64,000 nucleotides of DNA, from assembly GCF_028687635.1 (NCBI RefSeq), contig NZ_JAQTZS010000004.1:1-64000 (forward strand), read 5' to 3'. Positions 3,918 through 49,071 of this stretch are shown here, piece by piece; position 1 is the first letter of the stretch, and each line of letters starts with the position of its first letter. The DNA comes from Malikia sp. (lineage in GTDB: Bacteria > Pseudomonadota > Gammaproteobacteria > Burkholderiales > Burkholderiaceae_C). Made by a program: the position numbers and the translations under genes. The notes beneath the pieces are model-generated. The model was not told the origin of the DNA, did not search any database, and was given only the letters and a program-made list of their open reading frames with translations.

Positions 3918-5027
3918 TTACCGTTTTTTCATCACAAAGCTCAAGAGCTGGCTGGCCAGATCATCCTGTCGCAGCAGCCGGTCCCGGGCCGCGAGCGCGC
4001 AGGTCCGCCAGGCCGGCAGATCGACCGGGGGCAGCGGCGCGTCGATCAGCCCGTTCCAGACCCGGTGGAAGGCGCGCAGCGAGGGCGGCGCGTCGAGCCA
4101 GTCCAGGAAGGCTTCGAGCTTCAAGTGGTGCGCGTCGTCATGCTGTGGGTAGATATGCCAGACGAAGGCCTGACCGGCCCAGAGCGCGCGCACCAGCGAG
4201 TCCTCGCCGCGCACCAGGTTCAGCTCGCTGGCCCAGAGCAGGCGGTCGAACTCCGTTTGCGCCACATGGGGCAGGGCATGGCGCTGGGCTCGCAGCGCAA
4301 CGCTGGCGTCCCAGACCCGTTCCAGCGCGGCGGCCGGGCGTCCTGGCGCGACCAGCCAGTGCGCGCCGTCCAGCGCGGGGTCGCGCAGCAGCTCGGGCAG
4401 CCGCGCCGGTTCGTAGCAGAACAGCGTCACGCGCGGTGCGCCGCCGCCATCCGTGCTGTCTGGCAGGCCTTGGCCGCGCAGCCAGGGCTCGCGCTCGAAG
4501 GCCGCACGCTGCGCCATCAGGCCGGGCTCGCGCAGCAGACCGCCGGTGGCGGGCGTGAAACCGGGGTAAAAGAACCATTTGCCGCGCCCGGCCAGCGGCC
4601 CACTCATCACCGGCGAGGCCAGCTGGTGGCAGCGCTCGACATAGGGCTCGGCGCTCAGGTATTCCAGGTTGAGCCAGACCCGCCGGGGCTTGCCCGGGGC
4701 GGATTCAGGCTGCAGCGCCGCTACCCAGGCCGGAGCGATCTCGCAGCCGAAGGCCTCGATCAGCACATCGCCGGGCGGCAGTGCCGGGGGCAGGGCGGTC
4801 GGGTCGGTGCGCGGCCAGTGCCGCACCTCGATGCCGACAAAGGCACCAGCGCGCGCGCCGGGCGCCATCCAGTCCAGCAGCTCGGGCTGGTCGGCCCACA
4901 GCCGCACCCGCTGGCCGCGCGCGGCCAGGTTGCTCGCCAGCCGCCAGCAGACGCCCAGGTCGCCCCAGTTGTCGATCACATGGCAGCAGATGTCCCAGCT
5001 CAGGATGGGGGGATGTTCGCAATTCAC
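3918..5027 (-). CDS. earP: EF-P arginine rhamnosyltransferase EarP
   Basis: A 369-aa protein with EarP hallmarks: [20 protein letters not shown] at the N-terminus, [10 protein letters not shown] near residue 120, WFFYPGF near 150, and [20 protein letters not shown] near 275 holding the acidic residues of the active site. It transfers rhamnose from dTDP-rhamnose to Arg32 of EF-P, which is encoded next to it. Start is GTG. It is divergent from uvrC, with about 60 bp between the two starts. The Arg32/EarP pairing makes the assignment firm. Confidence 0.93.
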
Positions 5028-5087
5028 CGCCCGATTGTCTTACAGTGGCGCCTTTCCTTGTCAGCGAACCGCTTGCCGCCTTCCCTC

Positions 5088-7094
5088 ATGAGCGCCACCC
5101 ATCCCGATTCCCTGCTGCAGGCCGTCGCCGCCCTGCCGGCGCTGCCGGGCGTCTACCGCTACTTCGACGCCGACGGCCAGCTGCTCTACGTCGGCAAGGC
5201 CAAGGACCTCAAGCGGCGCGTCTCGACCTATTTCCAGAAAACCCATGACGGCACCCGCATCGGCCACATGGTCGCCAAGATCGTGCGCCTGGAGACCACG
5301 GTGGTGCGCTCCGAGGCCGAGGCGCTGCTGCTGGAAAACAACCTGATCAAGACCCAGCAGCCGCGCTACAACATCCTGTTTCGCGACGACAAGAGCTACC
5401 CCTATCTGCGCTTGAGCGCCAGCAGCTGGACACCGGCCTTCGAGCGCTCGCCGGCGGGGCAGGGCGGCCCAGCCCGGCCCGAGCATTACCCGCGCATGTC
5501 CTACTACCGCGGCGCGGTCGAGAAAAGGCACCAGTATTTCGGCCCCTACCCGAGCGCCTGGGCGGTCAAGGAGACGCTGGAGCTGCTGCAAAAGGTGTTC
5601 CGCCTGCGCACCTGCGAGGACACAGTCTTCAGCCACCGCAGCCGGCCCTGCCTGCTGGCGCAGATTAAGCGCTGCTCGGGGCCCTGCGTCGGCCTGGTGT
5701 CGGCGGCTGACTATGCGCAGGATGTGCGCGCGGCCAGCGCCTTCCTGCGCGGCGAGACCCAGTCCGTGCTGGCTGAGATCGAGGCCCGGATGCTGGCGCA
5801 TGCCGAACGGCTCGAATTCGAGCAGGCCGCCGAGGCGCGCAACCAGCTGAGCGCGCTGTCCCGGGTGCTGCACCAGCAGTCGATGGAGAACGTCTCGGAC
5901 CAGGATGTCGACATCCTGGCGGTGCGGGTGCAGGGCGGTCGCGCCTGCGTCAACCTGGCGCTGGTGCGCGGCGGCCGTCATCTGGGCGACCGGCCCTATT
6001 TTCCGGCCCATGTCGAGGATGGCGCGCTGCTGGCGGGACTGGCGGACCCCTCGGACCTCGCTGACAACGCGGCGGCGCCCCAGGAGGCGCGCGACCCGGT
6101 CGCCCTGGTGGCGCAGCGCGTGCTCGAAGCCTTCATTGCCCAGCATTACACCCAGGCCGCGCCGCCGCCGGTGCTGGTGCTCGGCGCGCCGGTCGATGCC
6201 GGCTTGCTGGAGCTGCTGACCGAGCAGAGCGGCGTCAAGCTGCACCCGGTGTTCCACCCGCGCGAGCACCGCCGCGCCTGGCTCGAGATGGCGCAGCAGA
6301 ACGCCGAGCTGCAGCTCGCGCGCCTGCTGGCCGAGGAGGGCTCGCAGCAGGCCCGCACCCGCGCGTTGGCGCAGGCGCTCGACCTGCCCGACGAGCAGCT
6401 GGAGACGCTGCGCATTGAATGCTTTGACATCTCGCATACCGCCGGCGAGGCGACGGTCGCCTCCTGCGTCGTGTTCGAGGGCCACAAGCTGCAGGGCAGC
6501 CAGTACCGCCGCTACAACATCGACGGCATCACGCCGGGCGACGACTACGCCGCCATGCGCCAGGTGCTGGAGCGCCGCTACGGCAAGCTGGCCGAGGCGC
6601 TGCGCGAGGCCGGTGGTAGCGAGTCGCCTGGCAAGGGCGGCGCGCGCCTGCCCGACATCGTGCTGATCGACGGCGGCAAGGGCCAGGTCGGCGTCGCGCG
6701 CGAGCTGTTCGAGGCGCTCGGGCTCGACCTGGGCCGCATCGTCGGCGTCGAGAAGGGCGAGGGCCGCAAGGTCGGCCTGGAGGAACTGGTGTTCGCCGAC
6801 GGCCGCGAGAAGATCTACCTCGGCGCCGACTCGGCCGCGCTGATGCTGGTGGCGCAGATCCGCGACGAGGCGCACCGCTTCGCCATCACCGGCATGCGCG
6901 CCCAGCGCGCCAAGACCCGCACCGGCGCCAGCAAGCTCGAAGACATCCCCGGGGTCGGACCCAGGAAGCGGGCCCGCCTGCTGCAGCGCTTCGGCGGCCT
7001 CAAGGGCGTGGCCGACGCCAGCGTCGAGGACCTGGCCGGCGTCGAGGGCATCTCGGGCGAACTGGCCAACGCGATCTACCGCGCGCTGCATTGA
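5088..7094 (+). CDS. uvrC: Excinuclease ABC subunit C
   Basis: The 668-aa UvrC makes the two incisions around a lesion in nucleotide excision repair. Visible parts: GIY-YIG nuclease at residues 10-100 ([22 protein letters not shown]), a UVR segment near 210-240, the RNase H-like nuclease ([16 protein letters not shown] near 445, [11 protein letters not shown] near 525) and a C-terminal helix-hairpin-helix ([16 protein letters not shown]). The track ORF runs upstream to 3807 only because the frame stays open; the ATG at 5088 gives the family N-terminus. Confidence 0.96.
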
Positions 7095-8773: not shown

Positions 8774-9022
8774 TCAGTGGGTCGGCGGCACGCCCTTGTA
8801 GACGCGCAGATGACCGTTTCCCTTCAGGAAATTTCTGTAGCAGTTCAGGGCGACTGCCTCGGCCTCGCGCGCCACATCGGCGCCGGCTGCCAGCACGTTG
8901 CCTGCCTCGTCGATGATGGCCAACCTGGCCGGCTTCCCGTTGGCCAGAACGGTCAGGCCCTCATGTGCCACTGCGGTGATCACGACGCCCTCGATCGCGC
9001 CGGTGGGTTGGGTTCCGATCAT
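8774..9022 (-). CDS. Hypothetical prophage protein, 82 aa
   Basis: Last gene of the leftward operon and the gene closest to attL. The start overlaps the stop of the upstream gene by four bases (ATGA). The protein has a small beta-rich look (IEGVVITAVAHEGLTVLANG, ARLAIIDEAGNVLAAG) and ends in a basic YKGVPPTH tail. No family is recognised. Serine integrases need a small recombination directionality factor; this gene or its neighbour is a positional candidate only. Confidence 0.65.
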   Translation of the reverse strand: MIGTQPTGAIEGVVITAVAHEGLTVLANGKPARLAIIDEAGNVLAAGADVAREAEAVALNCYRNFLKGNGHLRVYKGVPPTH

Positions 9023-9228
9023 GATGCATCGCCTTTCAGTAACTGATCCAGAGGCACTGGATCACTGCTTTCGCTCTTCGGCCATGGGCCTTTGAAAAAC
9101 TCGGCGTGGCTCGGCTGTTCGCTCCAGGCTTTGCGGCGAGCCGGGCAGTCGATGTGCGAGCACTCGGCGAAATCGCTGTTCATGCGCTTGGGGTCGCGGT
9201 TGCAGGTACTGCATTTTTTCGGGCTCAT
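9019..9228 (-). CDS. Hypothetical cysteine-rich prophage protein, 69 aa
   Basis: The N-terminal half has CSTCNRDPKRMNSDFAECSHIDC, two cysteine pairs that could bind one zinc ion. The C-terminal half is polar. ATGA overlaps on both sides place it firmly in the leftward operon. Function unknown. Confidence 0.65.
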   Translation of the reverse strand: MSPKKCSTCNRDPKRMNSDFAECSHIDCPARRKAWSEQPSHAEFFKGPWPKSESSDPVPLDQLLKGDAS

Positions 9229-9626
9229 GCTGAACCACCTTTCGCCTTTGCGATGGCGGAAAGCACTTTTTTATTGACGACGCTTCGGTTCATATTTGCG
9301 CCGGACAGCAGCAGGTGATCCAGCTCAAGCGCCTCCAGCAGCTCGTTGCGCTGCACAACAACGGAAAGCTGATACTGCAGGCTGGCTTCCTCTAGCGCGG
9401 CGTCGATACCCGCCTGGCACCCGTAGTATCGATCCAAGTCATCGGTAGAGATGCCATCGCAGGCGTTCCAGCAGGCCGCCAGGCGGCGAGCGTTCGCGAT
9501 GATGGTGTCGACCGAATGTCCAAAGTGCGTGGCGCGAGCGATTTCCTTGCCGGTGTCTGCTGCAGTGATCTGGTCGAGCTCGGTCGGGTTGACGGCCAGC
9601 AGGCCTTGCGTGTGCTGAGCGCTCAT
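9225..9626 (-). CDS. Hypothetical prophage protein, 133 aa
   Basis: Contains IIANARRLAACWNACDGISTDDLDRY (cf. the ARR-x-ACxNAC-GI-TxxL pattern seen in many phage early proteins) followed by a helical segment. It overlaps both neighbours by ATGA. The role is unknown; such genes usually sit in early or replication-linked operons. Confidence 0.65.
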   Translation of the reverse strand: MSAQHTQGLLAVNPTELDQITAADTGKEIARATHFGHSVDTIIANARRLAACWNACDGISTDDLDRYYGCQAGIDAALEEASLQYQLSVVVQRNELLEALELDHLLLSGANMNRSVVNKKVLSAIAKAKGGSA

Positions 9627-10195
9627 GCTGCACCTCTCAAGTCGATGATCTCGACGTCATGCGGCCGGCAGCGGCCGGAGAAGATGGCTGAGATCCGTTT
9701 CTCCGTCAGCCGGTGCGCGCGGATGATGGTGCGCGCGGGCAGCACGTCGAGCAGGTCGCGGTAGTCCTCAAGCAGCGCCCGAACGGCCTGGGTGCCATCG
9801 GCGTCAAGACGGATCTGCCCACCGTCGAGCTTGCGGATGCCGGCGGCGGCCATGGCTGCCACAGCATCCATCAGCAGCTTGCCGCTGTCGTGGATCTGCA
9901 CCCAGTCGCCGGCGCAGTCGCGCCACCAGTTCGAGCTGACCTGGCCATGCTCATCGGGTCGCGCGTCGCCATTGCGCAGCAGGGTTTCCATCAGGTTGAC
10001 GGCATCGCTGCACAAGCGCCAGTCGTCGTTGGTCGGATTGGGCGCGGTCTCGATCGCGCGCAGGCCTTCCCACATGCGCGAGAGCTGGTGCCGGCGCCGT
10101 TCAGCGCTTAGGGGCTGGTGCGGGCTGGCCATCATCTCGTCAATGCGGCTGTAGGTGCGCACTACAGTCAGCTGGGGCTTTTTACGCTTACTCAT
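9623..10195 (-). CDS. Hypothetical prophage protein, 190 aa
   Basis: A soluble, mostly helical 190-aa protein opening with a basic MSKRKKPQLTVVRTYSR. It has tryptophans in the middle (NWWRDCAGDWVQIHDSG) and no motif I can name. Its start overlaps the stop of the ParB-like gene by four bases, so the two are probably translated together. Confidence 0.65.
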   Translation of the reverse strand: MSKRKKPQLTVVRTYSRIDEMMASPHQPLSAERRRHQLSRMWEGLRAIETAPNPTNDDWRLCSDAVNLMETLLRNGDARPDEHGQVSSNWWRDCAGDWVQIHDSGKLLMDAVAAMAAAGIRKLDGGQIRLDADGTQAVRALLEDYRDLLDVLPARTIIRAHRLTEKRISAIFSGRCRPHDVEIIDLRGAA

Positions 10196-12333
10196 GCCTG
10201 TGCTCCTTCTTCCTGGTCGACGATCAGTTCAAGCTCATCCAGGCTGAATCGGTACTCGCAATCCAGCCCGTCAGGAATGACAAACAAGTCGCCGCTGGAA
10301 TGTTGGCCGACGACCCGGCCAGCTTTTCCGATAGCGGAACCTAGGATTGCCACTCGCTTCCCGCCCAGACCAGGCCTTTCATTGACATCTGCGGGCCTGT
10401 CTCCCGCGGCCTCTGGCCGCGCTCCATCCCCTTCGCCGCCAGCGGCGGCGACTGATTCATCCTCCAAGCCCCGCATCGCGGCAGCGATGCCTGACCTGAC
10501 CTCCTTCTCGCGCGCCTTCGGCTTGGTCGGCGCCTCGGCCTTGCGCTTGCCCCGGCCGCGCCCGGGTTCGCCCTTGCGCGAGCCGCGCGCAGCAGGGCCG
10601 TCACTGGCTACTGCCTCCCCCCGCACCCCATTGGCTTGCGCAGCAGGGGGAAGGGGTAGATCCGCTTTCGCAGCCTCGGCGGCCTTCACGGCCTTGACCG
10701 CCGCGCGCGTGCGCGCCTTGACTTCGGCCTGTACGAGAGCCGGATCGATGCCGAATTCGCTCGCCACCAGCCGCAGCCCGACGTTGGTATCGGATTCGTC
10801 GAGCCAGTGCAGATAGCCCACGTCGGCAAACATCACCAGCAGCAGCACGGCCTTGGTCGGGTCGGTATCTCCGTCCTTGACCCAGTCCAGCAAGCCCTGC
10901 TTGGGCGCGACCTTGCCCAACTCAAGCAGCTTGCACAGACGCCCGCACTGCTCCTGGTTGAGCTTGTGCGCGTAGGCCATGGCCAGGTGGCGCATCAGCG
11001 CCGGCCAGGTCATCACTTCGTCGCGGCCTTCGGTGATCTCGCGCCAGGTGGTCACCAGCAGCAGCCAGCGCCACTCGGTTTCGTACTCGGTCTTGGCTTC
11101 GGCCTTGGCCTTCTCGGCAGCCGCCTTTTTCTGGTTCTGGTTGTACAGCTCCTGGTCGCCGGCTTCCTCGGCGCGGCCGGCAGCCTTCAGCAGCTGGGCC
11201 ACCACGTCGTTCGGCAGGCAGGCCAGCAGCTCGCCATCCTTGTAGGGGTTGGCGACCAACACTGGGACGATGCCTTGCTCCGCCATCACCTTGCCGATGA
11301 TGGCCCGCAGCGGCTGGCTGGTCGGGCTGTCAGCCGGATCGTCAAGCCGGCAGTGGCCGTCAACCCGGCTCTGAAAGGTCATGGGCATCAGCGCCTTGGC
11401 ATCGCGGCCTTCGATGATGACCTGGCCGCGCTCATGCGCCTCGCGCTTGGTACGGGTGGCCAGCGCCTCGCGCTTGGCCTGGTGGCAGCCCGGGTTGATG
11501 CACAGATCCTCGCCATCGACGTCGGCGAAAAGGTCCGGGTCGGCGCCGGTGCGCTTGGGGCAGGTGGCGCAGCTTCCGCTGGCCGGCACCAGGTTGGCGT
11601 CGTGGATGTCAAACGGTGCATCGCTCAGCTTGAGCATGTAGTGATTGCGCACCAGGCGCTGGGCTTGCCGGTATGACCTGGCGGCATTCTCGCCATTGGA
11701 GTCGGCGGCAATGTCCTTGACTGCCGCGGCCTGCAGCTTGGTGTCAGGGATGCGCGCGATCAGCAGCGCGTGGCTGGCGTCCATGCGACCCTGGCGCAGC
11801 GCCTCGCGTCCGTCGGGGCCCAGCTCAAGTAGCTTGAGCCGGGCATAGACGTAGCTGCGGCTCTTGCCGATCTTGGCGCCCACGGCCTCGGCGCTCAGCT
11901 GGCTGTGCCGCATCAGGGTCTCGTAGCCTTCGGCCTCTTCAAGCTCGGTCAGTCCGTCGCGCTGCAAGTTCTCGATCAGCTGGATTTCGAGCACTTCGTC
12001 ATCGGTCAGCGACCGCACCATGGCCGGCACCGTCGCCAGCCCGGCGATCTGGCAGGCGCGGAAACGGCGCTCGCCGGCGACGATCTCATGCGTCGGGCGC
12101 GGTTGCAGTCCGCCGCTGGCCGCGTGGATGTCGAAGGTCTCCTGCAGGCGGTGGCCCGGCAGCGGCCGCACCAGGATGGGCTGGTGCACGCCGGTGGCGC
12201 GGATGCTCTCGGCCAGCTCCTGCAGCTTGGCCGGGTCGAATTGCTTGCGCGGGTTGGTCGGGCTGGTCACCAGCACTGGCAGCGGCAGGTGGTCGAAGTG
12301 GTCGACCTCGGGCAGTGGGTGGCTTGGGTTCAT
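10192..12333 (-). CDS. ParB/Srx-domain protein, 713 aa
   Basis: The N-terminal third is a ParB-type CTPase/DNA-binding module: NPRKQFDPAKLQELAESIR with GVHQPILVRP, the GERRFR box (VAGERRFRACQIAGL), ENLQRDGLTELEEAEGY, and a helix-turn-helix around GAKIGKSRSYVYARLKLLEL. Near residues 250-280 comes a cysteine set (CATCPKR...CINPGC) that may bind zinc. The long C-terminal part is charged, with a basic/proline stretch near residues 560-600. ParB proteins spread on DNA around a parS site; no ParA is present nearby, so a plasmid-type partition system is not supported. Confidence 0.82.
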   Translation of the reverse strand: MNPSHPLPEVDHFDHLPLPVLVTSPTNPRKQFDPAKLQELAESIRATGVHQPILVRPLPGHRLQETFDIHAASGGLQPRPTHEIVAGERRFRACQIAGLATVPAMVRSLTDDEVLEIQLIENLQRDGLTELEEAEGYETLMRHSQLSAEAVGAKIGKSRSYVYARLKLLELGPDGREALRQGRMDASHALLIARIPDTKLQAAAVKDIAADSNGENAARSYRQAQRLVRNHYMLKLSDAPFDIHDANLVPASGSCATCPKRTGADPDLFADVDGEDLCINPGCHQAKREALATRTKREAHERGQVIIEGRDAKALMPMTFQSRVDGHCRLDDPADSPTSQPLRAIIGKVMAEQGIVPVLVANPYKDGELLACLPNDVVAQLLKAAGRAEEAGDQELYNQNQKKAAAEKAKAEAKTEYETEWRWLLLVTTWREITEGRDEVMTWPALMRHLAMAYAHKLNQEQCGRLCKLLELGKVAPKQGLLDWVKDGDTDPTKAVLLLVMFADVGYLHWLDESDTNVGLRLVASEFGIDPALVQAEVKARTRAAVKAVKAAEAAKADLPLPPAAQANGVRGEAVASDGPAARGSRKGEPGRGRGKRKAEAPTKPKAREKEVRSGIAAAMRGLEDESVAAAGGEGDGARPEAAGDRPADVNERPGLGGKRVAILGSAIGKAGRVVGQHSSGDLFVIPDGLDCEYRFSLDELELIVDQEEGAQA

Positions 12334-12890
12334 GATGCGCTCCGGGTCTGGTAGGTTGCGGCTTGGACCAGCTGGCTCATCTGCCCGCTGGTGGCCAGGT
12401 CCGACCAGGTCGCCACGCTGGCCACCGTCAGTTCCAGGCGCGTGGCCAGCTCGATCTCAAGCTGGGCGCCCTTGCTGGCCTGACTGCCAGGAAGCACCGC
12501 CAGCGCCGCGCAGTCGCACAACCCCTTGATGTCGGCGCGCATGTGCTGGGCCCAGGTTGCGCTTGCGGGCAGGCCGTTCTCAGCGGGGTTGACCACGGCA
12601 TAGCCCAGCGCGCGCAGCTGGGCCGCTGCCTCGTTGAAGGCGGGGTAGTTGTAGTCGGGCAGGCCCGTCATGGGGCCGCACAAATACAGACGCGGCCAGC
12701 CTGCGCGTGGGGTCGGCACCGATGCGTCGACCTCGGGCTGCAGGCCCCAGTCCTTGCGGGTGCGCGCCATGATGTCGAGCGCATAGGCCTGGGCTGCGCT
12801 GCAGGGGTAGCCGATGGCCGGCTGAAAGCTGCTGGTCAGGGAAACGCCGCCGGCGGGCGTGTCGGTGAGGGTCAGGGTGATCGATGGCAT
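12330..12890 (-). CDS. DUF4406-domain protein (deoxyribosyltransferase-like fold)
   Basis: 186 aa. The C-terminal half reads RLYLCGPMTGLPDYNYPAFN, then GYAVVNPAENG, CAALAVLPGSQASKGAQLEI: the pattern of DUF4406, related to nucleoside 2-deoxyribosyltransferases. Phages often carry such proteins near replication genes, and nucleotide metabolism has been suggested. The first 70 residues are unlike the family and may be a separate module. Its stop overlaps the ParB-like start by ATGA. Confidence 0.75.
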   Translation of the reverse strand: MPSITLTLTDTPAGGVSLTSSFQPAIGYPCSAAQAYALDIMARTRKDWGLQPEVDASVPTPRAGWPRLYLCGPMTGLPDYNYPAFNEAAAQLRALGYAVVNPAENGLPASATWAQHMRADIKGLCDCAALAVLPGSQASKGAQLEIELATRLELTVASVATWSDLATSGQMSQLVQAATYQTRSAS

Positions 12891-12893
12891 GGT

Positions 12894-13097
12894 TCAGGCC
12901 TTGGATGCGAGGGGAAGCGTGGTGGTGATGGCATGCCCGCGATGGAACACAAATTCGTCGCCGCGCCGGCTGGGGTGCAGCAGGTGGTCCTGGCAGCCGG
13001 TCCGCAGCGTGCTGCTGGTCCAGTCGGCGCCCAGGTAGGGCTCGTGTGGCGGGGCGCCCAGCATGGGCAGGGCAATCGGTTCGGGCTGGATCTTCAT
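12894..13097 (-). CDS. Hypothetical prophage protein, 67 aa
   Basis: Small proline- and histidine-containing protein (MKIQPEPIALPMLGAPPHEP...). It is supported by ATGA overlap with the gene upstream and a 3-bp gap to the gene downstream. No motif recognised. Confidence 0.55.
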   Translation of the reverse strand: MKIQPEPIALPMLGAPPHEPYLGADWTSSTLRTGCQDHLLHPSRRGDEFVFHRGHAITTTLPLASKA

Positions 13098-39783: not shown

Positions 39784-41160
39784 TCAAACCGCCATGCTCA
39801 TCTGGCGCTGATCTACCGGCGCACCGCGCAGCGCGTACCCCCTGCTCTGGCGCGCGATCACGCCGTCACGCTCAAGCTCCTGCAGATAGCCGCGCACGAT
39901 GTCGGTTCCGCCGCCCTGGGCGGCCTGGATCGCCCGGATCGATGGCGTCAGCGTGCCGGCCTGCACCGCATCGCGGATGCGGCGGTAGCGGTAGCCGTCC
40001 TCGGCGCCTACGCCCGAGTCGCGCTTGTGCCCCACTTCGACCGGAGCCGAGCGCGGCTTGCGCGGCGCGGCCCGGCGCTTGGCCGGCGCCTGCTCGACTG
40101 CACCGCCCGACCCGTCCGACGACTGCACCGGATTCGGTGCGGTCTCGTTCGGCTGGGACTGCACCGAAACAGGTGCAGTGCGTGTGCCAGGCGTATGCAC
40201 CGAATCCGGTGCGATCGGTGCGGCAGGCGCGGTGGCGACCGGCGCAGAGTAGCTGGCGGCAGGGTAGGCCGGTGCAGTCACGGACATGACCGGCGCCGCG
40301 AAAGCCGCCGCCGGGATGGCCGCTGCCGGCACGCCGGCTGCCGCCCAGCGCCGGGCTGCAGAGTAGGGCGGGGTGACCTGGTCGACGATGCGGTGCGGTG
40401 CAATCGCGCCAGCCGCTGCCGAGGCTGGTGCAGTCGCCGCGCGCGCCGCCGTCGCATGGCTACGCGCGATGCCGACCAGCAGACCGCCGACGCTGACCGC
40501 TGCCACGCCGGCCAGGATGAAGGCCACCGCGCCGGCCGCGCTGAACAGCTGCACGCCGCCATTCCCCAGCACGCCGACTGCGGTCGGGCGGCGCTGTGCC
40601 TGGGCGCGTGCCAGCTCGGCGATCAGTGGGGCGGTTTGGGCCTCCAGGTCGGCGGCATCGCGGATCGAGCGCGCACCGTCGGCGCGGCTGTCGGCAATCC
40701 AGCTGCGGGCCGATTTCGCGCCGGCTTCGCGCAGCGAGGCAGCGGTGCTGCGGGCTGTTGCGATCTGAGCCTGCAGCTGCTGCACCCGGCTTTCAGCACC
40801 TTCGGCCAGCGTCTCGGCACTGCGAGCCAGGACCACCTTGGTCGTGTACACGGTGACGATCTCCAGCAGCAGCAGCGCCAGGGCGCAGGCGCTCAGCATC
40901 CGGCGCGCGGTGCGAAAGCGATCGTGGCGCAGCAGGGCGGCGGCAAAGAAGAAGGCCAGGTGCGCGACCACGGCCAGGATGCCGTACCAGGTGCGCAGCT
41001 GTCGCGCTTCGAGGTCCGGCTCGATGCGGCCCAGACCGATGATGTAGAACTGCCCGTTCACCCACGAAATGCTCAGACCGAGCGCGAGCAGTGCCAGGCC
41101 GATCAGGGTGTACGCGCCCGGGCGCAGGTGGATGCGGCTTTCGATGTCATGCGTGTTCAT
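39784..41160 (-). CDS. Membrane protein with C-terminal winged-helix-like domain, 458 aa
   Basis: Three membrane helices near residues 17-36, 60-80 and 88-108, a coiled coil at about 115-190, a fourth helix near 205-232, an Ala/Pro-rich linker (235-370), a basic stretch (AKRRAAPRKPRSAP) and a C-terminal fold YRRIRDAVQAGTLTPSIRAI...IVRGYLQELERDGVIARQSR that reads as a winged helix. This suggests a DNA-binding domain tethered to the inner membrane. Last gene of the leftward operon under the C4-like RNA. No family known to me. Confidence 0.72.
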   Translation of the reverse strand: MNTHDIESRIHLRPGAYTLIGLALLALGLSISWVNGQFYIIGLGRIEPDLEARQLRTWYGILAVVAHLAFFFAAALLRHDRFRTARRMLSACALALLLLEIVTVYTTKVVLARSAETLAEGAESRVQQLQAQIATARSTAASLREAGAKSARSWIADSRADGARSIRDAADLEAQTAPLIAELARAQAQRRPTAVGVLGNGGVQLFSAAGAVAFILAGVAAVSVGGLLVGIARSHATAARAATAPASAAAGAIAPHRIVDQVTPPYSAARRWAAAGVPAAAIPAAAFAAPVMSVTAPAYPAASYSAPVATAPAAPIAPDSVHTPGTRTAPVSVQSQPNETAPNPVQSSDGSGGAVEQAPAKRRAAPRKPRSAPVEVGHKRDSGVGAEDGYRYRRIRDAVQAGTLTPSIRAIQAAQGGGTDIVRGYLQELERDGVIARQSRGYALRGAPVDQRQMSMAV

Positions 41161-41174
41161 GGTGCTCTCCCGGA

Positions 41175-42605
41175 TCAGGTGGCCAGGGCCAGGCTGGCCT
41201 TGGCGCTGGCGCGCTGGGCGCGCAGCTCGGCGCGCGAGCGGCCGGTGACGAACAGTGCGTGATCGACCTGGGCGGTCTTGACCAGCAGCCCGGCGGCGTA
41301 GTCGCGTAGCACCTGCTCGGGGTCGATCAACCCTTCGGCCCGGCCACCGAGGGCCGTCGCGCCAGCGCTGTACCGCGTCACGGTCCTCGTGCTGGTCGGG
41401 GCTTTCGGCTGGGCCAATGGCTGACCGATCAGCACCGGGGCGCGCATGGCCTCGATCGACCCGCGAAACAACGCGGCCTGCACTGCGTCGATCTTGGCCC
41501 GTCCCTGGGCCTTGGCGGCGTCATCGATCGGCGCGGGCTGGATAGCGGCGCCCGGCTCGGGGCTGTAGTAGCGGGCAAGGAGGAAGGTGCGGCTGGGCTT
41601 GGCCAGGATGTATTCGGCGGCGGCTTGCGGCGCGATGCCGACCAGGGTGGCTTCGCGGTGCAGGTCCTGCAGGTCGGCGGGCTTGAGCGCCGCCTTGCCG
41701 TGGCGCAACCGCTGGGCATTGACGGCGGCCAGGGTGTCGGGGGCGATGGCCACCGCAATGGCGGGCTGGGCCGGTGCCGGTGGCGTGACGATCGGCGCGG
41801 CAGGGGTCGCCAGTGCAGCCGGTTCAGCTGGTGGTTCAGCTGGTTCAGCCGCTGCACCGACAGCCGGCAGGCAGCCGCGCACCGCGTCCGCTGCCACGGC
41901 GAGCGGCACTTCGCCGCTGGCGTCGGCGGCCTCGATCAGGTCGCGCAGGCTTTGGCCGCTGATCGGCAGGCCCTCGGAGCGAGCTGCGGCGATGTGGGCC
42001 AGCACGTCGTCCACGGCGGTCCTGGGCTGTTCGGTCTTCAGGTCTTCAAAAATCGGGAGGGGAGGGAAGGTGGTCCCCACCAGGTCGGCTGCCGGCGCGC
42101 ACGCATCAGACTCCTCCCCAGAGTAATACCCAGAGAACCACCCAGAGTGTGCGACATCCATGTCATGGGTCTGTGTCGAAAATGTCGTGGGTGGCTGCTC
42201 GGAATGTCTGGGGTCGATGTCGGAAATGTCCGGGGTGTTGGAGTTATCCACAGGCGCGATGGCCTGCTGCGGGAGCTTTTTGCAGGTCTCAGCCTCGGCC
42301 AGGGCCTTGACGTTGATCTTGTACACGAGGCACTTACCGCTCATGCCCACACGGTCCACCAGTCCGAGCCCCACCAGGGCATTGATGTAGCGGCTGGCTT
42401 GTCTCTTGTCCACCCGGCCGCTGCGTCGGCCGATGGTCTCCAGCGACATCGTGGTGCAGCCGGTGTGGCTGTCGCGGCAGCGCGCCAGGGCGATCAGTGC
42501 GAGCTTCTGGCCGCCGGTCAGCAGGATGTCGCAGGCATCGATCAGCGCGACCAGGCCGGGGTGCTTGAGGCCGGCCGCTTCGGGGGCAGTGTTCATGGTC
42601 TGCAT
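41175..42605 (-). CDS. HTH_36-type protein, replication-initiator-like N-terminus, 476 aa
   Basis: Start at 42605 (MQTMNTAPEAAG) behind GGGGTGA; the track ORF runs further up through the Rha-like gene. Residues 10-90 are a winged helix (LTGGQKLALIALARCRDSHT, SLETIGRRSGRVDKRQASRY) as in plasmid/phage replication initiators. The remainder is low-complexity Ala/Pro (270-310) plus a helical C-terminal part. Possible regulator or replication protein; the function is unproven. Separated by 14 bp from both neighbours. Confidence 0.68.
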   Translation of the reverse strand: MQTMNTAPEAAGLKHPGLVALIDACDILLTGGQKLALIALARCRDSHTGCTTMSLETIGRRSGRVDKRQASRYINALVGLGLVDRVGMSGKCLVYKINVKALAEAETCKKLPQQAIAPVDNSNTPDISDIDPRHSEQPPTTFSTQTHDMDVAHSGWFSGYYSGEESDACAPAADLVGTTFPPLPIFEDLKTEQPRTAVDDVLAHIAAARSEGLPISGQSLRDLIEAADASGEVPLAVAADAVRGCLPAVGAAAEPAEPPAEPAALATPAAPIVTPPAPAQPAIAVAIAPDTLAAVNAQRLRHGKAALKPADLQDLHREATLVGIAPQAAAEYILAKPSRTFLLARYYSPEPGAAIQPAPIDDAAKAQGRAKIDAVQAALFRGSIEAMRAPVLIGQPLAQPKAPTSTRTVTRYSAGATALGGRAEGLIDPEQVLRDYAAGLLVKTAQVDHALFVTGRSRAELRAQRASAKASLALAT

Positions 42606-42619
42606 GTCGTCACCCCGCT

Positions 42620-43441
42620 TCAGTGGACCAGGGCCGAGGGGCCTTGGGCGCCGTGCTTGAAGCCGTCCTTGCGCGGGCGGCCAGGCTTGGGCTGGTGGTC
42701 GGGGTCGAAGGACTCGGCGCCGGCGCGGCGCGCGCGCAGGCCATCGAGCGCGGCGCGGGCCAGGGCGCGGGCGAAACCGGTTTCCTCGCCTGGGTGGCTG
42801 GTGCTCCACTCGCTGGTGCCGTTGGTGGCTGATTCCCAGCCACGGCCGAACACGAAGCGCAGCGCATCGTAGGCCTCGTCCTCGTCGTGGGCGGCCAGTT
42901 CGGCGACCTCGCGGAAGAAGGCCTCGCCGCGCTCGATGCCGTCCTCCCACTGGCGGCAGCGCGGCTCTACCGACCAGTTGCGCCAGTGGCCGTTCTTGTC
43001 GTGGCGCGCGAAGCTCAGATCCTCACGCCTGCGGATGGCTGGCTTGGGCAGCGCGGGTGCGGCGACCGGTACCGCCAGCAGCGCCTGGGCACGCCGAGCC
43101 AGCTCGGCCTCCATGCGCTCGAACTCGTCGGCAAAGGCGATCTGGTGCTGCACCGCCTTGGCGCCGGTGAACTTGCCGACCACGAAGTGAAAGCCCTTCT
43201 TGCTCAGGCGGATGACGGGATAGCTGACCGTGCCGCCGTTGGGCTGGGGCAGTTCGACCGATGCCTCCCCGAAATTGGGGAGGCACCAATCAGACGGGCA
43301 TTCGGCCATGCGCTGGCGCACGATGCGCAGCACGTGGTCATGGCGCTTGCCATAGACCCGGGCGATATCGTGGGTGGTGGTAGTGGGTACGCCGTTGACA
43401 ACGGCCAGGACGGGCGCGGGTGCGCTGTGGACGTGGCTCAT
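42620..43441 (-). CDS. Rha-domain protein (antirepressor-like), 273 aa
   Basis: The N-terminal 115 residues match the Rha family: TTTTHDIARVYGKRHDHVLR, CLPNFGEASVELPQPNGGTV, IRLSKKGFHFVVGKFTGAKA, FADEFERMEAEL. The C-terminal part has WRNWSVEPRCRQWEDGIERG and a basic tail. Rha proteins regulate phage lytic growth and belong to the broad antirepressor group. Its start overlaps the preceding 80-aa gene by ATGA, so its translation should depend on that gene, which has a C4-blocked ribosome binding site. Confidence 0.8.
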   Translation of the reverse strand: MSHVHSAPAPVLAVVNGVPTTTTHDIARVYGKRHDHVLRIVRQRMAECPSDWCLPNFGEASVELPQPNGGTVSYPVIRLSKKGFHFVVGKFTGAKAVQHQIAFADEFERMEAELARRAQALLAVPVAAPALPKPAIRRREDLSFARHDKNGHWRNWSVEPRCRQWEDGIERGEAFFREVAELAAHDEDEAYDALRFVFGRGWESATNGTSEWSTSHPGEETGFARALARAALDGLRARRAGAESFDPDHQPKPGRPRKDGFKHGAQGPSALVH

Positions 43442-43680
43442 GCTGCACTGCCTTCCTGCGCGCGGATCGCCCGCTTGAGGTGGGTGCGCGCGCGCATGGC
43501 CTTGCCGAGCGCACGCTCGAGCGTGGCGGTGCTGACGGTGGGCGCATCGATCAGCGCCAGGGCGTCTTGCAGCGCGCAGCTGGCCAGCGTTTGCAGCACG
43601 GCGATGGAGAGGGGGATGCCCGAAGCGGGCAGGGTGGCGGCGCGAACGGGCGCGCGCAGGGTAGTGCGGGTGTCAGCCAT
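43438..43680 (-). CDS. Small protein, first gene of C4-controlled operon (Icd position)
   Basis: 80 aa, helical, basic C-terminus (LGKAMRARTHLKRAIRAQEG). Its ribosome binding site AGGAG (about 6 nt before ATG) lies inside CACTAGGAGCC, which is fully complementary to a loop of the upstream RNA. In phages P1/P7 the gene in this place is icd, translationally coupled to ant. No sequence similarity to Icd is claimed. Confidence 0.6.
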   Translation of the reverse strand: MADTRTTLRAPVRAATLPASGIPLSIAVLQTLASCALQDALALIDAPTVSTATLERALGKAMRARTHLKRAIRAQEGSAA

Positions 43681-43684
43681 GAAT

Positions 43685-43736
43685 GGCTCCTAGTGAACAG
43701 GTTCTCGAACCTGCCGCCCTTGAGGCCAATCAAGGG
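43685..43736 (-). promoter_or_regulatory. C4 target elements a and b
   Basis: Element b (43685-43695) reads CACTAGGAGCC on the minus strand and includes the ribosome binding site of the 80-aa gene. Element a is AGGCCAA's complement TTGGCCT (43723-43729), displayed in the loop of hairpin CCCTTGA-TTGGCC-TCAAGGG (43717-43736). Both have complementary partners in the upstream RNA. Confidence 0.72.
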
Positions 43737-43743
43737 GGAGGCA

Positions 43744-43811
43744 GACCGTGCGGGTTGGCCTACCGGCACTAGGAACCGGCGAACTTCCTTGCGGAAGTTC
43801 CCCACACGGCC
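43744..43811 (-). ncRNA. C4-type antisense RNA (candidate)
   Basis: 68 nt on the minus strand closed by a 10-bp stem GGCCGTGTGG / CCGCACGGTC (43802-43811 with 43744-43753, two G-U pairs). Inside: hairpin GAACTTCC-GCAA-GGAAGTTC with a GNRA loop (43781-43800); hairpin CCGG-TTCCTAGTG-CCGG whose loop is element b'; and AGGCCAA (43755-43761) as element a'. b' GGTTCCTAGTG pairs all 11 bases of the downstream ribosome binding site CACTAGGAGCC (one G-U). This is the C4 layout known from P1/P7 and relatives, where C4 silences icd/ant. Confidence 0.75.
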
Positions 43812-43881
43812 CGCCAATCGTCGGAGCAGGTCGCTCCGTCCATGAGGAATCCGTGTTGCCACTCGCAGCCGTGGACATAAG

Positions 43882-43917
43882 AAAAAGCCGCTGTCGCTGT
43901 GAGGCGGCGCGCGGCTT
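43882..43917 (-). terminator. Hairpin with T-run in the C4 leader
   Basis: Minus strand AGCCGC ... GCGGCT followed by TTTTTC, between the leader promoter and the C4 element. It could be an attenuator, or end a short leader transcript. A 5' hairpin GTGC-TTCG-GCAC (43953-43964) lies further upstream. Apart from these structures 43812-43970 shows no convincing gene; the ORF 43551-43964 overlaps all RNA elements and is probably not translated. Confidence 0.5.
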
Positions 43918-43970
43918 GCTGCGCCTAGTGTAGTCCGGGAGACCAATCCCGTGTGCCGAAGCACGGGGGG

Positions 43971-43999
43971 ATTTTACTGCGCTTTCGCCTGGCTGGGAA
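43971..43999 (-). promoter_or_regulatory. Promoter of the C4 leader and leftward operon
   Basis: Minus strand TTCCCA - 17 bp - TAAAAT. Start of transcription is expected near 43964, at the first base of the UUCG hairpin. It is the only good promoter seen between the lipoprotein gene and the C4 element. Confidence 0.6.
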
Positions 44000-48261: not shown

Positions 48262-48346
<85 letters not shown>

Positions 48347-48407
48347 TTTCAGGGTTTTGTTTCTTGAGATGTTACACAAGGCCGCTTGCATTGACCGCAA
48401 TGAACCT

Positions 48408-48492
<85 letters not shown>

Positions 48493-48553
48493 TTTCAGGG
48501 TTTTGTTTCTTGAGATGTTACACAAGGCCGCTTGCATTGACCGCAATGAACCT

Positions 48554-48638
<85 letters not shown>

Positions 48639-48654
48639 ATCTCAGGAAGCCACT

Positions 48655-48660
48655 ATTATA
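48655..48660 (-). promoter_or_regulatory. -10 box of tRNA-Leu cluster 1
   Basis: TATAAT on the minus strand 17 nt before copy 3. The upstream stretch is A/T-rich but lacks a clear -35. 48661-48802 otherwise shows no gene. Confidence 0.5.
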
Positions 48661-48802
48661 GCCCGGGTTTTTGGTGTTTTTTCCGCTCGCCGAAAATTTT
48701 TTGAATAGGTGGCTGCTGGATGCATTTGGCTGCCGCGCCAGCGCTGCAGGCAACGGTTGGCCGCTTGCCATCAGTGTGCGCCTGTCTTGAGGTCGGAAAA
48801 CG

Positions 48803-48836
48803 AAAAACCCCGCAGACCGTGAGATCTGCAGGGTTT
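48803..48836 (-). terminator. Terminator of tRNA-Leu cluster 2
   Basis: Minus strand AAACCCTGCAGA - TCTCACGG - TCTGCGGGGTTTTT, just after copy 4. Confidence 0.8.
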
Positions 48837-48842
48837 CATGTT

Positions 48843-48927
<85 letters not shown>

Positions 48928-48986
48928 TTTCAGGGTTTGTTTCTTGAGATATCGCACAAAGCATAGCCAACAAGTGCTAAAGTCTT

Positions 48987-49071
<85 letters not shown>

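Follow-up and report, generated by a model that had tools for sequence, protein, structure and literature searches.

Why would a membrane protein that ends in a winged helix be encoded last in an operon headed by an antisense RNA of the phage immunity type? This question is raised by positions 39784-43680 of the window, by which we mean the whole stretch of DNA analyzed, 64,000 nucleotides from Malikia sp. Four open reading frames are found there on the minus strand, as are all the operon features located below, and they are close-set, the spacing between neighbors being roughly -4 to +17 bases, in agreement with the preliminary description. They code for an 80-aa leader protein (operon gene 1, 43438..43680), a Rha-domain protein of 273 aa (42620..43441), an HTH_36 protein of 476 aa with a low-complexity middle (41178..42605) and a 458-aa membrane protein, hereafter MP (39784..41160). 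The operon is flanked by an endolysin-like gene on one side and a serine recombinase gene on the other, and the prophage has a separate VapE helicase of its own outside the operon. Two other regions of the window were noted: at 48262-49071, minus strand, there are five tandem tRNA-Leu (CAG) genes with equal Rfam scores, and at 8774-13097 an operon on the same strand codes for a ParB-like protein of 713 aa and for a DUF4406 protein. Other loci that were compared are cited by L number.

The leader of the operon was analyzed for structured RNAs. A C4 antisense RNA was identified at 43734..43821 (Rfam RF01695, 47.3 bits, above the gathering score of 45), with a predicted folding energy of -52.6 kcal/mol (z -5.4). 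Its second hairpin exposes TTCCTAGTG, which is complementary to the sequence CACTAGGAGCC (43685..43695, seqC-like) that covers the Shine-Dalgarno of the leader gene, and 11 pairs can be formed between this target and the loop region GGTTCCTAGTG (43767..43777). Further upstream, at 43881..43980, an isrK/seqA-like RNA matched RF01394 with 28.9 bits, under the gathering score of 50 (E=3e-4, with 801 bases searched). Within this RNA, at 43924..43930, lies the seqA-like word CACTAGG, the same as the word at the Shine-Dalgarno of the leader gene. Neither this RNA nor the relatives of MP that are found elsewhere in replication and partition modules figure in the preliminary description. The C4 control proposed there was upheld, as was the placement of the 80-aa gene, directly after C4, at the position of icd.

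Matches to the Rfam C4 model were obtained in the window and in L018, L020, L023, L025 and L068, with a subthreshold match in L022. The leaders of L019 and L067, which gave no Rfam match for C4, contain C4-shaped folds with loops that match the Shine-Dalgarno region of their own first gene. C4 was also searched for in five plasmid loci (L043-L047) and was not found there. Six of the loci (window, L018, L020, L022, L023 and L025) were compared in a 6 x 6 matrix of loops and targets. Their loops differ, and the cognate pairing was the best in every row, with 7-9 bases paired in each combination of a C4 loop with the Shine-Dalgarno of the same locus; counted as Watson-Crick pairs, the values were 7-8 on the diagonal and 2-7 off it. 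The off-diagonal values of 7 correspond to the window and L023, the target words of which have CTAG in common. The same pattern of pairing between the C4 loop and its own Shine-Dalgarno was found in a seventh locus, L068, from another genus. A second copy of the target word, 6-7 bases long, is present upstream of C4, inside the isrK-like part, in 9/9 loci, and across these nine the words vary from locus to locus while the pairing with the resident C4 is kept. Shuffling of single targets gives weak evidence, as the observed score was reached in 10 to 329 of 500 shuffles, and the claim of pairing is thus based on the matrix across loci and on the second target copy. Together these data give good support to the identification of the operon leader as a P4/P1-type immunity leader. 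Targets are found on both sides of the RNA in all nine loci, as in P4. Replication functions downstream are clear in L019, L020, L025 and L067, which code for primase-helicases or a GPA protein, while in the window operon the sole candidate for such a function is the HTH_36 protein, through its O-like PHROGs match. Matches to the int-alpA RNA (RF02996) near the MP loci of L019, L025 and L028 suggest phage-satellite-like elements.

The products encoded between the leader and MP were searched in protein family collections. The 80-aa leader protein has relatives in L018, L019, L020, L022 and L023 (phmmer), and it had no match in Pfam or PHROGs. The assignment of the second product as a Rha-domain protein was confirmed by Pfam (PF09669, 6.5e-14, 52.7 bits, above the cut-off of 29.9) and by PHROGs (PHROG 518, Rha-like regulator, 1.5e-20), and it is probably an antirepressor-type regulator. 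The HTH_36 assignment of the third product also stood, with a weak Pfam match (6.5e-5, 23.1 bits) slightly below the cut-off of 25, and a match to PHROG 391, 'replication initiation O-like' (4.8e-9), covers residues 32-148 only. The model of this 476-aa protein is of low confidence, with winged-helix-like elements at the N-terminus, and beyond that N-terminal HTH it is unusable.

The four membrane helices attributed to MP in the preliminary description correspond to four strong hydrophobic segments, which are common to 14 members and leave 90-111 residues between the third and the fourth. In the AlphaFold model, built with six sequences, TM3 continues as a long helix that is followed by a second helix running back, by TM4, by a linker without order and by a winged helix predicted with confidence. 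The membrane part of the window protein comprises residues 14-243 (40432..41121), its helical hairpin is about 95 residues long, and the conserved residues are G28, I133, S153 and P192-T193. Positive residues come after TM2 and TM4, and this distribution indicates that the N-terminus, the TM2-TM3 loop and the C-terminus are probably cytosolic and the long hairpin probably periplasmic. Residues 244-385 are predicted to be disordered. The winged-helix-like end that had been proposed is present in the model as a domain of residues 386-445 (39826..40005), with helices at 386-400, 408-415 and 419-431 and strands at 435-438 and 441-444, modeled with pLDDT near 90, so that the refuting outcome named in the preliminary description, a C-terminal domain of another fold, did not occur. 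Foldseek paired it with winged helices of the GntR and LexA types, while by sequence it remains below significance (GntR in Pfam, E=0.012; best PDB profile matches, E=0.007-0.05). On the basis of this predicted fold, the domain may bind DNA.

The linker of many members, phage and plasmid alike, contains a hydrophobic signal-peptide-like segment (residues 270-296 in the window protein, 40273..40353) with the pattern R-R/Y followed by about 18 A/P-rich residues and often AxA. L066, L067, L068, L072 and the short forms lack this segment. Less hydrophobic than the TMs, it appears in the AlphaFold model only as short helices; were it to span the membrane, the winged helix would lie in the periplasm. 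The winged helix itself is missing in the members of L021, L026, L027 and L042, which suggests that the membrane module is able to work without DNA binding of the winged-helix kind. MP had no family match in Pfam, PHROGs, NCBIfam, PADLOC, PDB sequences or the phage collection, and a Foldseek search of PDB with the whole model returned nothing at E<=0.001. Two uncharacterized viral proteins of about 400 aa match most of the model (E 7.5e-5 and 2.7e-4), with TM-scores near 0.2 that make these matches a hint only. MP thus appears to represent an undescribed family with a well-supported predicted architecture of four membrane helices, a hairpin, a disordered linker and a winged helix.

Relatives of MP were found by alignment searches; single-protein scans of viral and genome contigs gave nothing. 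Each Malikia genome contains several copies, five clear ones in the case of the genome of the window, and a contig of Malikia granosa carries a member of the family. A family-level search of 401 genomes located members in 4/141 genera, two order-level searches of about 400 genomes gave a real match only in the genome of the window, and at the class level distant relatives of the membrane part turned up in further families, mostly as single chromosomal genes. Plasmids of Cupriavidus and Acidovorax carry the full-length protein and a Comamonadaceae plasmid carries the short form, all annotated as hypothetical. In a tree of the membrane part, the C4-linked Malikia members were weakly grouped (91/89), and the other C4-linked pair, L067 and L068, was placed with chromosomal genes; several joins in this tree involve long branches and were not relied on. 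Matches of a wider profile (L030-L034) were rejected as chance or winged-helix-only similarities; their sequences point to Fic-type proteins, a sensor kinase and a regulator of the MocR type. With hhalign, no relation was obtained between the MP winged helix and the C-terminal part of the distant relative in L089. The chromosomal genes L069, L070 and L073, from three genomes of one genus, adjoin rRNA-methyltransferase-like and Sir2-like genes, as if domesticated.

The neighborhoods of MP were compared by inspection, in a set of loci that is not a random sample. The HTH_36 gene directly precedes MP in the window, L018 and L022 and is near it in L019, and in L068 two HTH-type proteins are encoded before MP, one of them an HTH_36 match above the cut-off. 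In L020, a DUF3987 helicase and a CHC2 protein precede MP, with the same arrangement in L023 by position and sequence, and in both loci DnaB and HTH_36 are encoded further upstream. A DUF927/Toprim primase follows MP in L025, and an 83% identical protein follows it in L019. L067 has a GPA initiator directly before MP and DnaB further upstream. No replication initiator is located beside MP in L024, which has RecT and YqaJ-type genes nearby, in L042, in L066 or in the short-form group L021/L026/L027, and the chromosomal relatives L069, L070, L072, L073, L082 and L084-L088 are not beside replication genes. What recurs in the C4-linked loci is therefore C4, a leader gene, a replication gene and MP; the conserved co-occurrence anticipated for all four genes held to this extent and not for the exact set, as a Rha gene inside the C4 operon is restricted to the window and to L018, its close twin. 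In L021, a GmrSD-type restriction gene and a HEPN-type gene (4565-6477) are located upstream of the short MP relative, which is followed, at 9754-14032 of L021, by genes sized like those of the ParB-like/DUF4406 operon of the window.

On plasmids, MP often lies beside or near rep and partition genes. The order rep-parA-parB-MP with direct adjacency was found in L045 and L047, parA and parB lie beside MP in L046, and rep-parA-parB is located upstream at 4.2 kb in L044 and 7.8 kb in L043. The chance of the plasmid adjacency was put at 6.6%, an order-of-magnitude estimate made by hand and not a test. In L089, parA-parB is followed by one small membrane gene, the distant relative and ssb. Other features of the plasmid sequences were noted. 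About 100 bases before MP, in the 5' leader, L043-L047 share a conserved GC-rich hairpin with matching changes in both arms by eye and no Rfam match. The perfect palindrome TTATACATCATGTATAA, a candidate operator or parS site, occurs twice between parB and MP in L045 (3568, 3604) and L047 (11793, 11829) and is absent from the loci of the other plasmids. The short-form plasmid locus L042 has two copies of GGGGTACAAGTACCC upstream, just before 8001.

Taking these observations into consideration, we propose the following model. The leader transcript would carry the seqA/isrK-like hairpin and then C4, which would pair both with the upstream target copy and with the one that covers the Shine-Dalgarno of gene 1. 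Expression of the genes that follow would thereby be prevented in the lysogen, whether through a block of translation (as in P1), through premature termination of transcription (as in P4) or through both. When C4 is overcome, the leader protein, the Rha regulator, the HTH_36/RepO-like protein and MP would be made. MP would then act as a replicon-associated membrane anchor: the four inner-membrane helices and the periplasmic hairpin would hold a flexible linker that ends in a DNA-binding winged helix in the cytoplasm, most likely docking the element at the inner membrane while it replicates or partitions. A tether function is suggested by the architecture and the neighborhood, and such an anchor would account for the occurrence of one protein together with unrelated replication systems and also with partition genes. 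The membrane part must act by itself, since several members lack the winged helix. We consider it an even call that the operon is a P4/P1-type immunity operon whose MP anchors mobile replicons at the membrane and is silenced in the lysogen. The wider proposal, that an undescribed polytopic winged-helix family docks plasmids, phages and satellites at the inner membrane when they replicate or partition, and that in temperate phages and satellites it is kept, like their replication genes, under RNA immunity of the C4 type, is more tentative and falls somewhat short of even chances. Several points speak against an anchor: MP matches no family of known function, the signal-peptide-like segment leaves the side of the winged helix ambiguous in the members that carry it, the VapE helicase of the prophage is elsewhere, and chromosomal and some other relatives are not beside replication genes.

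The preliminary description had suggested that MP senses the state of the membrane to trigger or block lytic growth. Direct support for such a lysis switch was not obtained, and the neighbors point to replication or maintenance of the replicon. As a membrane-tethered transcription factor, MP would sense the envelope through the periplasmic hairpin and switch phage or replicon genes through the winged helix. The polytopic build of MP, the conserved hairpin on the periplasmic side and the similarity of the cytosolic winged helix to GntR, MarR and LexA regulators are consistent with this reading, and a sensor-regulator would explain the hairpin as well as an anchor does, but not the neighbors of MP, which are recurrently replication and partition genes rather than a specific regulon. 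Furthermore, relatives without the winged helix exist, no target site or signal was found for MP, and the C4 layout should silence MP in the lysogen, so that it could hardly be the sensor that decides induction. For these reasons, we consider it unlikely that MP is such a factor. The expected silencing also weighs against a superinfection-exclusion or defense protein. MP is a membrane protein whose gene lies towards the end of the prophage, with lysis genes on one side and a recombinase on the other, where morons are commonly located, and it is found on plasmids too. The reading of the cassette as a moron was nonetheless not supported, as homologous cassettes carry primase-helicases or a rolling-circle initiator, the plasmid relatives are with or near rep-parA-parB, and MP has no PADLOC match. 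We regard this role as very improbable.

If the C4-controlled cassette were toxic, MP could be a host-takeover or cell-division inhibitor, like P1 icd and kilA. The logic of positions is that of P1 immI, where C4 controls the division-blocking Icd together with Ant (PMC8201110). The four TMs and the winged helix of MP recall FtsK, and the weak matches to PDB profiles include FtsK gamma domains (E=0.036-0.055); these FtsK matches, however, are not significant, other winged helices score equally, and MP has no FtsK motor. The gene is also retained by plasmids and chromosomes, which is ill-fitting for a toxin, and an inhibitor of this kind seems improbable. In L045 and L047, the order rep-parA-parB-MP and the two TTATACATCATGTATAA copies between parB and MP could instead mean that MP controls the expression or copy number of its own replicon via operators near rep/par, with the membrane part as a localizer only. 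The palindromes, however, are absent at the loci of the other plasmids and could be ParB sites, and binding of MP to them has no support; this is the least probable of the alternatives. The anchor is the reading that we prefer. If it is correct, a membrane-anchoring factor common to plasmids, satellites and phages of Burkholderiales exists for which the libraries searched contain no description, and it would offer a testable case for the use of the inner membrane by mobile replicons.

Among open-licence papers, none on MP was found, and the MP family is what is new here; C4 and P4-type immunity, and single-protein membrane-DNA tethers in other forms, are already known. FtsK has four TMs, a long low-complexity linker and a C-terminal winged helix. 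MP shares the four TMs, the linker and the C-terminal winged helix with it, while no RecA-type motor was found by Pfam between the linker and the winged helix of MP and no FtsK sequence match was significant. The membrane replication organizers of the phi29 p16.7 type may be a further analogue. RocS of Streptococcus pneumoniae and Par of plasmid pSK1 link DNA, through an HTH, to the membrane via a coiled coil in a single protein and have been proposed as tethers (PMC11500499). A single protein that links DNA to the membrane is also what is proposed for MP. In RocS the DNA-binding domain is N-terminal, followed by the coiled coil and a C-terminal amphipathic helix, and the RocS/pSK1 Par layout of N-terminal HTH, coiled coil and C-terminal membrane helix is not that of MP. 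In a comparison by architecture, the order is reversed in MP: the polytopic TMs come first, the hairpin is outside and the winged helix is last.

The leader and the first genes resemble known immunity systems more closely. In the Gifsy-1 isrK-orf45-anrP operon (PMC4825925), as in the window, an isrK-type RNA, a small ORF and an antirepressor gene are in one transcript; here an Rfam C4 sits between the isrK-like RNA and the ORF, and the downstream genes are different. In P1 immI (C4, icd, ant), C4 governs both Ant and the division-blocking protein Icd (PMC8201110). Both operons have a C4 antisense RNA, a small gene at the icd position and an antirepressor-type gene next, although the likeness of the leader protein to Icd and the replacement of Ant by Rha are by position, and HTH_36 and MP follow in the window. 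In P4, seqA and seqC are the pairing partners of the CI RNA, which terminates transcription prematurely and so silences the replication genes, and IsrK has been called a structural homologue of seqA (PMC4825925). The operon in the window is like P4 immunity in having a C4-class RNA in the leader with a target word on either side and, in related loci, replication genes downstream; it differs in that the first target overlaps a Shine-Dalgarno and in that the last gene codes for a membrane protein with a winged helix. The nine C4 systems, with their separate target words, are a natural set for following how the specificity of RNA immunity of this P4 and P1 type diverges while pairing is kept.
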